Source: Candidatus Zixiibacteriota bacterium
GTDB taxonomy: Bacteria > Zixibacteria > MSB-5A5 > GN15 > PGXB01
Length of the DNA stretch: 64,000 nucleotides
Assembly (NCBI GenBank): GCA_016933955.1
Contig: JAFGTT010000010.1
Coordinates: forward strand, 1-64,000
Direction: 5' to 3'
Both the position numbers and the translations under genes were made by a program. Shown here in pieces: positions 4,139-11,161 of this stretch (the stretch's first letter is position 1; every line of letters starts with the position of its first letter). The notes beneath the pieces are model-generated. The model was not told where the DNA came from. It saw only the letters and a list, made by a program, of their open reading frames with translations, and searched no databases.

Positions 4139-6409
4139 TTAAGATAGTCCCAGCATAAAGCGTAACATGCGGATCGTCCCATTCTTGCCGAATTCACCCA
4201 CTTCCATCTCAGGGCCGACACACGAGGGACATCCTCCCTGACAGGGACATCCGCCAACCTGCTCCAGACAGGCCCGGAAAAGGTCATCGGAGATATTGAA
4301 CAACTTTTCCGAATACCCGACCCCCTCGGGAATATTTTCATATATGTATATGGTCGGCAACTCGGTGAAGGGTGAACGGACCTGCGAGATCGAGCGCAGG
4401 TCATGCGGATCGCACATCATCCACAACGGGGCAATCTTGCCGAGGATATTGGCCACGCCTCTCAGGGAGCCGCCGAACTGCTCGCCCTCAAGATTGATCC
4501 GGAAACGGATATCACCGGGGAAGGAGTACCAGAAAGAATGAGTGCTTAATTCCAGTTCGGGTAAATTGAGTTTGCCGGAACCGACATTTTCATGGGTGTG
4601 GAACTTGATTTTTTTGAACAGCACCGTGACTGAAGTCACTTTGACTTCACCCCAGGCCATCCGGCAATCGCCGGATTGTTTTTGATCGGCTACGGAAAGG
4701 ACTTTCAGATCGGTTTTGGTTTCGGCGTCGGTATAGTAATCGACTTCGGTTTCTTTGACATAGGCTTTCCGTCCCTCCCAGTCGAGTTCGGTGACCTGGT
4801 ACTGGTCGGCATCATGGAGATAAATCGCCTCGGGGTGCAGGAAAATCGGGGCCGAATAATAATCGATTTCACCTATCACACGGTTGTTGTCGGTCTCGTT
4901 GAGGATGACGAAATTTTCGGGCGAGGCTGAGCGAAGCGACACCCCCTGGGCGGGGTAGATTTCCGATGACCAGTGATATTTGCCGCCCGATTTCCGGAGG
5001 ATATTCTGTGATTCGAGATAATCAAGAATTTCCCCGGTGCCATCGGGGCGGAAGGTTTCATCGACGGACAGCGGTAATTCGAAACTGGCACATTTGATAT
5101 GATTGGCGCTGATGATCAGGTTGTCGGGGTCAATGATACCCATCTCCGGGGTCCGTTTGAGCAGGTAGTGCGGATCGCGGGCCAGGAACTGGTTGATGGC
5201 CGAGCTGTTGGCCACGAAAATAGTCAACGAAATTCCCGAACGCCGTCCGGCCCGTCCCGCCTGTTGCCAGACCGAGGCAATGGAACCCGGATAACCGCAG
5301 ATGATGGAAACATCAAGGGCGCCGATATCGATCCCGAGTTCGAGGGCATTGGTCGAGACCACCCCGGTAATGGCTCCGTTTCTCAAGCCCGCTTCGATCT
5401 CGCGGCGTTGATTGGGCAAATATCCTCCCCGGTATCCGGCCACGCGAATATTTTTTCCGAAAGGTTCGGCGAATTTCTCTCTTAAGTATGACAGCAAGAT
5501 TTCGACCTGGAGGCGGTAATGGGCGAAAATAATGGTTTGAATTCTCTCCCGTATAAAATATTCGGCCAGTGACAGGCTTTCGGTCAGGGATGATTTTCGT
5601 ATTCCGAGCTGGCGATTGACGATCGGCGGATTATATAATATGAAGTATTTTTCCCCGGTCGGGGCACCGTTGTTGTCGATCAGTCTGACTTTCTTTCCGG
5701 TGATTTTTTCGGCCAGCTCGGCGGGATTGGCAATGGTGGCCGAGGAGGCGATAAAAATCGGGTCGGAGCCGTAGAAGCGGCAGATTCTTCGCAACCGCCG
5801 AATGACATTGGAGAGGTGCGATCCGAAAATACCGCGATAATGATGAATCTCATCGATGACGACATACTTGAGATTCTCAAACAATTTGATCCACCGGGTG
5901 TGATGGGGCAGGATACCGGTATGGAGCATATCGGGATTGGTGACGACAATGTGTCCGGCCGATCGGATCAATCGCCGGGCGGTCTGAGGAGTGTCGCCAT
6001 CGTAGGTGAAGGTCCTGATATCGACATCAAGAGTATCGATCAAGCCGGTCAATTCGGCCAGTTGATCCTGTGAAAGGGCCTTGGTGGGGAAGAGGTAGAG
6101 AGCGCGAGTCGATTTGTTTTTGATGATACTGTCGAGCACCGGCAAATTGTAACAGAGGGTTTTGCCCGAGGCCGTCGGAGTGACTATCACGGTATCTCTA
6201 TTATCATGGATGCTGTCGACAGCTTCGCGCTGGTGGGAGTACAGCTTCTGAATTCCCCGTGTTTTCAGCACACGCACCAGTTTTTCATCGAGAAAGTCCG
6301 GGAATTCGCGGAATTCTCCCGGTTTGGGCGGGAAGATTTCCCAGTGCACGATATTCCCGGCAATGGCCGGATCGGTTTTAAATGACTCAAGAATCTGCGG
6401 CAGGTTCAT
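4139..6409 (-). CDS. MrfA/YprA-type superfamily 2 DEAD/DEAH helicase with C-terminal Zn cluster
   Basis: 756 residues. Residues 60-85 carry the Q-motif region and Walker A (TPTASGKT, 78-84). DEIH is at 186-189 and SATI at 223-226. Helicase domain 2 has the QQAGRAGRRSG motif. The C-terminal DUF1998-type region ends in a Cys cluster (C714, C721, C723, C727, C730), as in Bacillus MrfA and eukaryotic Hrq1, which unwind DNA 3' to 5' in mitomycin-type lesion repair. The start overlaps the intergenic end of the archaemetzincin gene (stop at 6415). No YprB/MrfB nuclease gene is seen beside it. Confidence 0.9.
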   Translation of the reverse strand: MNLPQILESFKTDPAIAGNIVHWEIFPPKPGEFREFPDFLDEKLVRVLKTRGIQKLYSHQREAVDSIHDNRDTVIVTPTASGKTLCYNLPVLDSIIKNKSTRALYLFPTKALSQDQLAELTGLIDTLDVDIRTFTYDGDTPQTARRLIRSAGHIVVTNPDMLHTGILPHHTRWIKLFENLKYVVIDEIHHYRGIFGSHLSNVIRRLRRICRFYGSDPIFIASSATIANPAELAEKITGKKVRLIDNNGAPTGEKYFILYNPPIVNRQLGIRKSSLTESLSLAEYFIRERIQTIIFAHYRLQVEILLSYLREKFAEPFGKNIRVAGYRGGYLPNQRREIEAGLRNGAITGVVSTNALELGIDIGALDVSIICGYPGSIASVWQQAGRAGRRSGISLTIFVANSSAINQFLARDPHYLLKRTPEMGIIDPDNLIISANHIKCASFELPLSVDETFRPDGTGEILDYLESQNILRKSGGKYHWSSEIYPAQGVSLRSASPENFVILNETDNNRVIGEIDYYSAPIFLHPEAIYLHDADQYQVTELDWEGRKAYVKETEVDYYTDAETKTDLKVLSVADQKQSGDCRMAWGEVKVTSVTVLFKKIKFHTHENVGSGKLNLPELELSTHSFWYSFPGDIRFRINLEGEQFGGSLRGVANILGKIAPLWMMCDPHDLRSISQVRSPFTELPTIYIYENIPEGVGYSEKLFNISDDLFRACLEQVGGCPCQGGCPSCVGPEMEVGEFGKNGTIRMLRFMLGLS

Positions 6410-6414
6410 GTTAT

Positions 6415-6957
6415 TCAGTTAATCCCCGTCAGGCGACGCTGGCAGATATCACAGAATTTTTCACCCTTGCGATCGATATCGAGCATATCCTGGCTGTAGT
6501 AGTTGATACATTTGGGATTCCGACAACTGGGAATTTCGAACAGGTGCGACAGTTGATGAATCGATTGCTTGAATAGCCGATCGTACACCTTCATGTCGTT
6601 TTCAGGCAGACCGTAAAATTCCTGGCGTAGTTTAAATAATGATATCACGGCCGTTCCCAGCACGATATCGGAATACCCGAGAACAAAAGGCTCATCGGGT
6701 AGATAAATATCTTCCTCGCAAACGCCGAGAATCAGCTCCCGTGAGTTGGCCTTGACCCGTTCCAGTTTGGCCAGGATGATGCTGGCGTAATGCTGGGAGC
6801 GGATGACATTGTAGGCTTCCTCCGGGATTTTCATGCCTTTGAGAATATCCACCGAGCGGCCGAAAATCGGACCGATACTGGTAGCCAGCCGGTTGACCAT
6901 CATGAAATCTACATCGCCCAGCGGAACCACCACGATTTTACTTTTCTTCAGCAACAT
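6415..6957 (-). CDS. archaemetzincin-like protein (M54) with degenerate catalytic site
   Basis: About 180 residues, starting at ATG 6957 (a TTG lies one codon before). The fold markers of archaemetzincins are present, including the structural Zn site: C145, C150, C169 and C172 in a C-x4-C ... C-x2-C pattern. The active-site consensus HExxHxxGxxHC reads HQLSHLFEIPSC here, so the general-base Glu is Gln (codon CAA), the Gly is Glu and the third Zn-ligand His is Ser. Only two metal ligands remain. It is probably not a protease but a structural or regulatory relative. The neighbours are the helicase and a small Zn-ribbon protein in one operon. Confidence 0.75.
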   Translation of the reverse strand: MLLKKSKIVVVPLGDVDFMMVNRLATSIGPIFGRSVDILKGMKIPEEAYNVIRSQHYASIILAKLERVKANSRELILGVCEEDIYLPDEPFVLGYSDIVLGTAVISLFKLRQEFYGLPENDMKVYDRLFKQSIHQLSHLFEIPSCRNPKCINYYSQDMLDIDRKGEKFCDICQRRLTGIN

Positions 6958-6965
6958 CAATTATT

Positions 6966-7169
6966 CTATTCGGCCGTAAAAAATTTGCTTTTTGATCCCA
7001 GAGGGGAAACCCGGACTTCCATTTTGGCGGCGCATTTCGGACACCATCCGACGAAGGCATCTCCTTTTTTATTCAAATAAATCCGTGAATATATGCGGCA
7101 ACATTTGAACAGAACCCCGATATGGGGCCGCCGGGGAGTATTAGAATCTCCTTCATTCGGCATGTTCAT
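6966..7169 (-). CDS. small zinc-ribbon-like conserved protein
   Basis: 67 residues; start ATG directly follows the deoC stop codon (7170-7172), so the two are translationally coupled. Cys pairs CC at 23-24 and CPKC at 43-46 flank a short beta hairpin, suggesting one Zn-binding knuckle. The layout (HIGVLFKCC, GWCPKC, then a VRVSP strand ending near SKFF) looks like a conserved bacterial small protein rather than a chance ORF. Function unknown. Confidence 0.6.
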   Translation of the reverse strand: MNMPNEGDSNTPRRPHIGVLFKCCRIYSRIYLNKKGDAFVGWCPKCAAKMEVRVSPLGSKSKFFTAE

Positions 7170-7841
7170 TTAGTGCCTGCTCCGGATGGCAAGATATTCA
7201 TTCATTATGTTGACCGATGCCGAGGAACCGATACGCTGAGCGCCGGCTTCGATCATGGCCAGGGTATCGCCCAGGGTCCGGATGCCCCCGGACGCTTTAA
7301 CCTTGATTCTTCCGGAGGCCGCCTTGTATAACCCGGCAACATCATCGGTTGTTGCACCGCCAAAAAATCCGGTGGCCGTTTTTGCGTAATCCGCTCCGGC
7401 GTTGACTATAGCTTCCACCGCTGTATCCCTTATGGTCGGGGTGATTTTGGGCGTTTCAATAATGACTTTAAGCAGGCATTCTTTCGGAAGATGTTTCCTT
7501 ACCTGTGAGATTTCGTCCTCGACTTTATCATATTCCCCGGAAACCATCCAGCCGATATTGGCAACCATGTCGATTTCATCGGCGCCGTCCTCGACGGCCC
7601 GGACCGCCTCGGCGATTTTAATGGCGGTGGTATTAGCCGAGAGGGGAAATCCGGCCACCGATATGATCTTGACCGGGGCGCCGGATAACTCCCTATGGGC
7701 CTGAGTTACCCAGCAAGGATTAATGGCAATACCATAGAAATCATTTTCAACCGCTTCACGGCACAGTTTGATAATAGCGTGGTGGTCGGTCTCCGAGGTC
7801 AACAGTGAATGGTCGAAATATTTATTCAGGTTGTCGATCAT
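7170..7841 (-). CDS. deoC: deoxyribose-phosphate aldolase
   Basis: 223 residues, full length. It cleaves 2-deoxyribose-5-phosphate to glyceraldehyde-3-phosphate and acetaldehyde in deoxynucleoside catabolism. The Schiff-base lysine lies in KTATGF (K154), the assisting lysine in KASGG (K182), with D91 and K125 (LKVIIET) completing the site. It is transcribed with deoB (13-base gap), the preceding step of the same pathway. Start ATG has a weak upstream GAG. Confidence 0.95.
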   Translation of the reverse strand: MIDNLNKYFDHSLLTSETDHHAIIKLCREAVENDFYGIAINPCWVTQAHRELSGAPVKIISVAGFPLSANTTAIKIAEAVRAVEDGADEIDMVANIGWMVSGEYDKVEDEISQVRKHLPKECLLKVIIETPKITPTIRDTAVEAIVNAGADYAKTATGFFGGATTDDVAGLYKAASGRIKVKASGGIRTLGDTLAMIEAGAQRIGSSASVNIMNEYLAIRSRH

Positions 7842-9076: not shown

Positions 9077-9110
9077 TAAAAAAAAGCGGTCGATTCCGAC
9101 CACTCTTTTT
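9077..9110 (-). terminator. Rho-independent terminator after the sigma/anti-sigma/lipoprotein operon
   Basis: In the minus-strand transcript a 7-bp stem GTGGTCG/CGACCGC (one G-U pair) with a 4-base loop is followed by a run of eight or more U. The plus-strand coordinates of the stem are 9086-9103. Confidence 0.7.
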
Positions 9111-9129: not shown

Positions 9130-9981
9130 TTACAAATTTTCAATTTCAACAAGGCGGCTTGTGAAATTTCTGATCTCATCGATTTTAAAGTTAATTTCCT
9201 GTTTGCCGCGGGTTAGAATACCTTCCCGGACCACATGCGAGGTTTCCTCCTCGCGGACAATCGTACCCAGGGTGTAGGCGAAATAAACGACCCCCTCGAC
9301 ATCGATACGGTCATGACCGCTGGCAGTAATGTCCGGATCTTTTGAAAGGTTGTCGGCCAGAGGAATGAACATGGTTCCCTTATATTCGATAACGGCGCAA
9401 TCATAACCGGCCTCCCTGACCAGGGCTTTGATTTTATAGGTCGTCGAGGCATCGGTGGTTCCTGTGTTCAACACCGCCTTAACGGTATGATTCCAGTTAT
9501 AACCGACCGAAACCGGTTCCTCGGGGTACATCGGTGAGGTTTGTTCGAACAATTTTTTATAATAATCGATGGTTTCCGCGGAGGTTTCATCCCCGGCGAT
9601 GATGTCGATTATTCTCCCGCGGGGATCCATTACAAAATCGGTACTCCAGACCCCGGAATCGGATACTGCGGAAGCGGGCGCGATCTCATTGGCTCCGGAA
9701 GGCTCGGTGCTGTAAACATAGTGCAAACGGCCATTGCCGTCATCCGTGATGGCGGCCGTTTCCATGGTATAGGATATTTTCTGAGGCTTTTCTCCTGAAT
9801 CGACCAGCTTCCCGTTTTCATAAATGGTGGAATTGATTTCACCATCGTATTTATAATGAAATTTTTTATCGGTCGGGAATTTATAGGCAAGCTTAACTTC
9901 CTTTGGCCCCGATTCACAGCCGGTCAGTATCAATAATTCGAAGGCAAGGATCATTATCATAATTACGGGTTTGAGTTTCAT
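9130..9981 (-). CDS. hypothetical lipoprotein of the sigma/anti-sigma operon
   Basis: 283 residues from ATG 9981. A GTG five codons upstream lies inside the apparent SD (GAGGT), so ATG 9981 is the better start. The signal peptide has lipobox LILTGC (Cys22), then a beta-rich domain with repeated Tyr/Lys-containing strands (KFHYKYDGEI, DVEGVVYFAYTLGTI). No known enzyme motif. The gene immediately follows the anti-sigma gene and precedes a terminator. It may be an envelope component sensed or controlled by the ECF sigma factor (inference). Confidence 0.7.
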   Translation of the reverse strand: MKLKPVIMIMILAFELLILTGCESGPKEVKLAYKFPTDKKFHYKYDGEINSTIYENGKLVDSGEKPQKISYTMETAAITDDGNGRLHYVYSTEPSGANEIAPASAVSDSGVWSTDFVMDPRGRIIDIIAGDETSAETIDYYKKLFEQTSPMYPEEPVSVGYNWNHTVKAVLNTGTTDASTTYKIKALVREAGYDCAVIEYKGTMFIPLADNLSKDPDITASGHDRIDVEGVVYFAYTLGTIVREEETSHVVREGILTRGKQEINFKIDEIRNFTSRLVEIENL

Positions 9982-9992
9982 GGTCTCATACC

Positions 9993-10523
9993 TCACAAGT
10001 TTATGCCGAAGTGACCTGCCATCAGATGTCCGCCCATGGAACCCGGCGGGGACATCATCATGGATCCAAGAATGTCGGAGTCGGGTTTTATGTTTAAAAT
10101 TAATGATTCGGTTTTAAATTCATCGGATTCAAGACTGGTTTGTAAGGTCCCCGGTTTATTCGGGACAAAGCTGTCAATGGACAGGGAGACAAACAAAAAC
10201 ACCAGAGAGGCGGCCAGGGGAATCAGGATACTTTTCCATGATGATGAATCCTCGGCGGTAGAAACGGGCAGGCTGTTCCATGAGCTGACCTCATTGATCC
10301 TGACGCGATCGAAGATGGATTGTTCCAGGCCGTCCCAGTAAAGCTGGCCGGGGTCGGGAATAGTGTCCGATTTGAGAATAGCCAGCAGGGTTCGTTCTCT
10401 GTCCAGCTCTTCGCGACAGACCGCGCATAACTCCAGATGATTCTGCAGACGTTCGCGGTCAGCGTCCGAAATACAATTGGCGAGGTAGTCATCGAAGTAC
10501 TCAATGGCCCGATTGCAATTCAT
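9993..10523 (-). CDS. anti-sigma factor with zf-HC2 domain and one TM helix
   Basis: The N-terminal zinc finger reads C3 ... H29-x3-C33-x2-C36 counted from ATG 10523, the usual anti-sigma HxxxCxxC pattern, and binds and inhibits an ECF sigma factor. A TM helix lies at about residues 95-113, followed by a periplasmic tail of about 60 residues rich in Met/Gly at the end. ATG 10523 lies 12 bases after the sigma stop. An in-frame ATG at 10555, overlapping the sigma gene, would add 11 residues; neither has a clear SD. Confidence 0.8.
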   Translation of the reverse strand: MNCNRAIEYFDDYLANCISDADRERLQNHLELCAVCREELDRERTLLAILKSDTIPDPGQLYWDGLEQSIFDRVRINEVSSWNSLPVSTAEDSSSWKSILIPLAASLVFLFVSLSIDSFVPNKPGTLQTSLESDEFKTESLILNIKPDSDILGSMMMSPPGSMGGHLMAGHFGINL

Positions 10524-10534
10524 GGTAAAACCGT

Positions 10535-11095
10535 CTATATTTTTTTTCTGATCCATTTTTTCAATTTTGTTCTTGCGATATGAAGATTTGATCGGACCGT
10601 AGCCTGGGGACACCCCAGAGACCGGGCGATTTCCTGTTTGGAAAATCCCTCAATATCATGCAGGATAATCGCCATCTTTTGTTTGGGCGGCAGATCCTGA
10701 ATAGCTTCCTTAATGGCCGCCGCGATTTCGGTATTCTCGAGGCTCTGATCCGGGCTGACGATTCGCTCGGCCAGTTCTTTTTGAACTTCCGGCAGAAAAG
10801 CCAGATCGTCAACCGAAACGAAATTTTTTCGACGCCTGCGAATCATATCGATTGAATAATTAGTGGCAATACGCAAAATAAAACTGGAAAAATATTTTAT
10901 GGAGCCTAATTCCTGTCTTCGTTCATAGAGCCTTACGAAAGTCTCCTGCGTTACTTCGTCAGCATCAAGATGATTTCCCAGCATTCGATAGGCGATCGAA
11001 TATATTTTCTTTCCATACCTCCTGACCAGTTCGGCAAAGGCCCCCCGGTCATTGCTGATCAGTCTTTCGATCAGCAGTTTAAGATCATCGTTCAT
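10535..11095 (-). CDS. ECF (RpoE-like) RNA polymerase sigma factor
   Basis: About 186 residues from ATG 11095; in-frame TTG 11119 and ATG 11107 are alternatives. Region 2 contains DADEVTQETFVRLYE and IATNYSIDMIRRRRK; region 4 contains KQEIARSLGCPQATVRSNLHIAR as the helix-turn-helix for the -35 element. It directs core RNA polymerase to a small regulon, probably envelope stress. It is cotranscribed with its anti-sigma and a lipoprotein and ends in TAG, showing that TAG is an ordinary stop here. Confidence 0.92.
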   Translation of the reverse strand: MNDDLKLLIERLISNDRGAFAELVRRYGKKIYSIAYRMLGNHLDADEVTQETFVRLYERRQELGSIKYFSSFILRIATNYSIDMIRRRRKNFVSVDDLAFLPEVQKELAERIVSPDQSLENTEIAAAIKEAIQDLPPKQKMAIILHDIEGFSKQEIARSLGCPQATVRSNLHIARTKLKKWIRKKI

Positions 11096-11161
11096 TGACA
11101 CCGGCATTCCTGTCGGCAATTATTAGACGTCAAGATACCAATACCGTTTAAAACTAAATCA

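Follow-up and report, generated by a model that had tools for sequence, protein, structure and literature searches.

A conserved archaemetzincin-family protein with a decayed catalytic site, encoded between a small four-cysteine protein and an MrfA-type helicase in Zixibacteria

The pseudo-archaemetzincin locus

The window, by which we mean the whole 64,000-nucleotide stretch of Candidatus Zixiibacteriota DNA that was analysed, carries on its minus strand (6415..6957) a gene for a 180-residue protein that we refer to as the pseudo-archaemetzincin, with an ATG start at 6957 and an in-frame TTG at 6960. The frame was found to be open, and its checked translation reads as a first-pass annotation of this DNA had given it. 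Directly upstream on the same strand, across a gap of 8 nt, lies a gene for a 67-residue protein with four cysteines (6966..7169; FKCC...GWCPKC...FF), which we named ZNR, and 5 nt past the stop of the pseudo-archaemetzincin starts a gene for a 756-residue MrfA/YprA-type SF2 helicase with an MZB Zn-binding domain (4139..6409, minus strand). A gene of the deoxyribose-phosphate aldolase (DeoC) family, whose position is conserved in the order, ends where the ZNR gene begins (7170..7841, minus strand) and is preceded by a gene for a phosphopentomutase-like metalloenzyme (PF01676; 7855..9039, minus strand) that is probably the first of the transcription unit. A terminator-like hairpin of 14 pairs with a T tail (9079..9110, minus strand), which is a consensus match only, parts this unit from an ECF sigma/anti-sigma operon. 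The minus-strand genes upstream of the phosphopentomutase at 9130-11119, encoding an ECF sigma factor, a zf-HC2 anti-sigma factor and a DUF6263-like protein, are syntenic across the order.

The pseudo-archaemetzincin was assigned to family M54 by Pfam (PF07998; E 2.5e-16, 60.7 bits versus a cut-off of 24.4), and the NCBIfam archaemetzincin model NF033823 scored 134.4 bits, slightly below its cut-off of 145 bits. Its sequence matched the solved archaemetzincins 3lmc, 2x7m, 4axq and 3zvs (E 5.5e-20 to 9.4e-16). An AlphaFold2 model based on a 59-sequence alignment reached a mean pLDDT of 92.7 and a pTM of 0.88, and the top five PDB matches to this model in a Foldseek search, those four structures among them, were all archaemetzincins, with TM scores of 0.79-0.90. 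Sequence and predicted fold together place the protein in the archaemetzincin family, but because it is without the defining catalytic features of that family it should not be named a protease.

The first-pass annotation had placed the gene in an operon with an MrfA-type helicase and a Zn-ribbon protein, and both neighbours proved to be real. The helicase aligned with the MrfA/YprA structure 6znp over residues 18-738 (E 1.1e-264), carries the Pfam domains DEAD, Helicase_C and MZB (DUF1998) and classifies as MrfA/YprA. It matches MrfA of the Bacillus subtilis MrfAB (YprAB) system over its whole length, but no MrfB exonuclease adjoins it in the window, where the pseudo-archaemetzincin and the small cysteine protein are found instead. 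The latter has a CC...CPxC pattern, and its identification as a known zinc ribbon was rejected: Pfam gave no match, NCBIfam only a sub-threshold one, and the PDB none of note by sequence. Its structure was predicted with moderate confidence to contain five strands, and a PDB fold search with this model returned no match at E < 1. The residues Gly18, Cys23, Cys24, Tyr27, Cys43, Pro44, Cys46, Gly58 and Phe63 are invariant in the protein, which looks, from its sequence, like a member of an undescribed family.

Catalytic decay and the invariant Cys4 element

Where archaemetzincins have HExxHxxGxxHC, residues 134-145 of the window protein read HQLSHLFEIPSC. Within the decayed catalytic site, HQLSHLFEIPS (residues 134-144; 6526..6558, minus strand), Glu135 has been replaced by Gln, Gly141 by Glu and His144 by Ser, with His134 and His138 both still present, and the C-x-M of the Met-turn reads CIN, Met having given way to Asn152 (6502..6504, minus strand). 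Replacement of the catalytic Glu and of the third His had been noted at first pass and is borne out, but the count of two losses proved too low: the motif Gly and the Met-turn Met have gone as well, so that the decay exceeds two residues. The structural Cys4 zinc-finger element (6442..6525, minus strand) was likewise said to remain, and does, with both of its pairs complete (Cys145-x4-Cys150 and Cys169-x2-Cys172). As read from the sequence, the features of an active zinc protease are thus divided in the window protein, the catalytic motif and the Met-turn Met being absent and the Cys4 element present.

Conservation was assessed in 66 non-redundant orthologues from the order of the window and compared with 47 intact homologues. 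Glu at position 135, His at 144 and Met at 152 never occur in the order (0/66 each), and the Met-turn position is Asn in 57 and His in 9 of these orthologues, versus Met in 47/47 intact homologues. Each of the four cysteines is present in 66/66. It had been proposed to check whether the HQxxH form is conserved, and it is not, since position 135 is Gln in only 48 of the 66 (otherwise Arg in 11, His in 3, Phe in 2, and others) and both remaining histidines are lost in part of the order, His134 being kept in 55 and lost in 11 and His138 kept in 53 and lost in 13. Across all columns the mean entropy in the order was 0.92 bits; it rose to 1.51 in the four catalytic columns and fell to 0.00 at the cysteines. 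Of 23 columns conserved to at least 95% in the intact homologues, those still invariant in the order are the cysteines together with Arg53, Gln55, Asp83, Tyr115, Arg127, Asp162 and Lys164, and no catalytic column is among them. Judged by these alignments, the conserved trait is the loss of catalysis rather than the letters HQxxH.

The window protein shares with AfAmzA, MkAmzA and 3lmc the same predicted fold (TM 0.79-0.90) and the same spacing pattern of the Cys4 element, and has in common with archaemetzincins the invariant Arg53, Gln55, Asp83, Arg127, Asp162 and Lys164, but differs from them in that the catalytic Glu, the third zinc His, the motif Gly and the Met-turn Met are all replaced. 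The Cys4 site of AfAmzA and MkAmzA holds a structural zinc required for stability, and neither protein, with its motif intact, showed protease activity in assays (PMC3427221), so that losing the motif may not mean that a demonstrated activity was lost. In vertebrate AMZ1 the third zinc His is replaced by Asn, Ser or Thr (PMC3427221), a substitution by a non-ligand that resembles the Asn of Zixibacteria families f15-f17 and the Ser of the window protein; AMZ1, however, retains the Glu of HExxH.

Distribution, graded loss and gene neighbours

The dead form was present in 70/80 genomes of the order, 8 of the others giving no match and 2 an intact paralogue only. Orthologues were found in 56/60 relatives, including 41/41 near-complete ones (the match in G029 being its intact paralogue), and a match was found in 121/132 genomes across the phylum. 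Named relatives at 55-78% identity are labelled almost without exception Candidatus Zixiibacteriota. In the genome of the window itself (3.38 Mb, 96.6% complete) the pseudo-archaemetzincin is the sole M54 member, and no second, intact archaemetzincin was found elsewhere in it. According to the first-pass annotation, close orthologues with an intact HExxH would have made this a local mutation; none occurs among the orthologues at 55-80% identity, which span more than 40 genera, and the intact motif is confined to other families of the phylum at about 46-50% identity. A local mutation or a sequencing error is ruled out by the order-wide conservation of the dead form. Two order members, G029 and G084 (the latter 77% complete), carry intact stand-alone archaemetzincins only, and a dead copy was not found in them. 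None of the papers in the literature collection searched links Zixibacteria with archaemetzincin.

In a maximum-likelihood tree, made by a quick method with no bootstrap and with the motif columns omitted, the operon-borne Zixibacteria copies formed one clade (55 rows, SH-aLRT 97), separate from the canonical archaemetzincins that stand alone in Zixibacteria and in other phyla. Members of this clade span all states from intact, through single losses of either the Glu or the third His, to total loss. Two full-length copies are fully intact (L161, HELGHLMGFKHC; L174, HELGHTMNLHHC). In L172 and L204 (family f14; HQLGHLLGLKHC) the Glu alone has been lost and all three zinc His are kept, a change of the same type as in CarG, and in families f15-f17 (L176-L188, L192, L195, L210-L212) the third His has become Asn, giving HExxHxxGxxNC, with the Glu kept in most. 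The minimum numbers of changes on the unrooted tree were 6 for the Glu, 4 for the third His, 9 for the first His and 8 for the second; such counts do not by themselves separate gain from loss, and loss is the natural reading of these sequences because the homologues outside the clade are intact.

Selection was estimated from close pairs with unsaturated dS. Among dead copies dN/dS was 0.01-0.06 (0.012 for L073/L078, 0.020 for L009/L010 and 0.025 for L008/L011), which shows that the dead protein is in use. The two intact pairs available gave values above these, 0.12 and 0.15.

Sequence comparison revealed a conserved tandem of the small four-cysteine gene, the pseudo-archaemetzincin and then, usually, the MrfA helicase. 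The ZNR gene was found in 93/132 genomes of the phylum and lay upstream in 86/106 sampled clade loci, and MrfA lay downstream in 60/88 sampled clade loci with enough downstream sequence, both clade counts including by default one distant sequence, L128. Neither neighbour accompanied the 46 archaemetzincins outside the clade (MrfA downstream in 0/46, ZNR upstream in 0/46). Because much of the synteny within the order extends over a larger block, adjacency counts for less there than in the distant families; adjacency to MrfA extends to families f5-f9, f16, f18 and f19 and to the intact copy L174, but not to f17 and others. Four near-complete genomes of the order (G055, G035, G039 and G046) have kept the pseudo-archaemetzincin and the cysteine gene with no MrfA match at E 1e-100, and MrfA is hence not the sole reason for the pseudo-archaemetzincin to exist. 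The link to the helicase is real yet dispensable.

No copy with a complete HExxHxxxxxH was linked to a ZNR gene, and the two intact full-length copies and those that lost only the Glu all come from families in which no ZNR gene was found. Members of the ZNR family were also present in 32/119 sampled genomes of Planctomycetota, next to other genes, which indicates that the family is not dedicated to the pseudo-archaemetzincin; neither archaemetzincin nor helicase neighbours were found at these loci. At the Planctomycetota loci L220-L238, the small cysteine gene is often followed by a gene for a cysteine-containing protein of about 160-185 residues (with starts such as MDDYKISRTTRTCAKCEAAF and MDYHLKPLGKSCSATGKEF), with no archaemetzincin.

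A probable binding role and its alternatives

The suggestion made at first pass, that this is a pseudoenzyme kept for binding, gained support from the want of close orthologues with an intact HExxH and from the strong purifying selection on dead copies. Sequence conservation and analogy together point to a conserved non-proteolytic binding role, which we consider probable, with the protein serving as a Zn-stabilised protein-interaction module. As the dead form has been inherited across the order beside a DNA-repair helicase gene, it most likely binds proteins rather than cuts them. The precedent is CarG of Myxococcus xanthus, an archaemetzincin-like HQxxH protein without protease activity (PMC8156234, PMC3427221) that has the motif HQx2Hx2Ex2HCx4CxMx16Cx2C (PMC8156234), loses function in vivo in single Cys-to-Ser mutants, which fail to complement (PMC8156234, PMC3427221), and works by partnering another protein, without binding DNA itself (PMC4374960). 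By extension from CarG, the Cys4 zinc of the window protein would stabilise the fold, and the former substrate cleft and its surroundings may serve as a docking surface. The likeliest partner would be the small cysteine protein encoded directly upstream, and in genomes that have MrfA the two probably take part in DNA repair by acting on the helicase or jointly with it.

The likeness to CarG is considerable, comprising the change of Glu to Gln in HExxH and of Gly to Glu, the kept Cys4 element and a length of about 170 residues. Were the window protein an orthologue of CarG, it would bind a CarD-type RNA-polymerase-binding protein and, as a transcription co-regulator, be required by ECF sigma factors, and the HQxxHxxE form shared with CarG, which is non-proteolytic (PMC8156234), the weak matches to the CarG-type NCBIfam model NF033824 in all 10 members of A1 and the syntenic ECF sigma/anti-sigma pair upstream are consistent with this. 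However, that model gave the window protein only 93.3 bits versus a cut-off of 250, and was outscored by the general archaemetzincin model; CarG has kept the third His and the Met-turn Met where the window protein has Ser144 and Asn152; and the terminator-like hairpin, itself a consensus match, lies between the pseudo-archaemetzincin and the ECF operon. CarG is moreover coupled to carD, whose product has a CarD_CdnL domain and an HMGA/H1-like tail, and no such gene goes with the window protein. No stand-alone CarD/CdnL was found in the genome of the window or in 59 relatives, the CarD-domain frames being nearly all of about 1130-1230 residues and representing Mfd, which alone carries the CarD_CdnL domain in the genome of the window. 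With the CarG model failing and stand-alone CarD lacking in the relatives, orthology to CarG was rejected as very improbable. The best reading of the analogy is that the window protein works like CarG in kind, yet is not CarG.

A more specific form of the binding role, with which it overlaps, would make the protein a subunit or regulator of MrfA in particular, keeping substrate protein or partner nucleases at the helicase while crosslinked DNA is repaired. The full-length helicase is the immediate co-directional neighbour in 60/88 loci, distant families and L174 included, but the near-complete genomes in which the protein and the ZNR gene occur with no MrfA match, and families such as f17 in which MrfA is not adjacent, leave this dedicated role possible but rather unlikely. 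That the protein might still be a metal enzyme, with His134, His138 and an acidic residue 141 (H-x3-H-x2-D/E, in one helix) forming a remodelled site for other chemistry, is suggested by Asp or Glu at position 141 in 45/66 and by both His in 49/66 of the order. We regard this as improbable and rejected it, as the acidic residue and the two His do not covary significantly (Fisher p 0.14), many members have lost the His (DQVSF, QQIAY, RLLAQ, SQMGY) and variability in these columns is above average. Stepwise loss of catalytic residues in several lineages could also be expected of a functionless gene decaying in the operon that carries it, but a pseudogene is ruled out by dN/dS of 0.012-0.06 between dead copies, and with the cysteines and dozens of further columns invariant and the frames intact in nearly all genomes this explanation is hardly credible.

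Inactive archaemetzincins were already known as two isolated cases, CarG of myxobacteria and vertebrate AMZ1; what is new here is a phylum-wide graded series from intact copies through single losses to complete loss, within one orthologous clade and with conserved gene neighbours. Such a series makes it testable whether binding, rather than proteolysis, is the conserved job of archaemetzincins, a question that is relevant because even the intact AfAmzA and MkAmzA were without protease activity in the reported assays (PMC3427221). As a conjecture that we hold to be doubtful, the ancestor may have been a protease-helicase pair of archaemetzincin and MrfA that cleared crosslinked proteins from DNA, the protease half of which later became, in most Zixibacteria and several times by differing residue losses, a non-cutting adaptor sharing an operon with the four-cysteine protein. 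If this were true, every stage between enzyme and pseudoenzyme would be preserved in the phylum, within a single conserved genetic context. The locus also draws attention to what looks like an undescribed small four-cysteine family and to a module that may be accessory to MrfA helicases.
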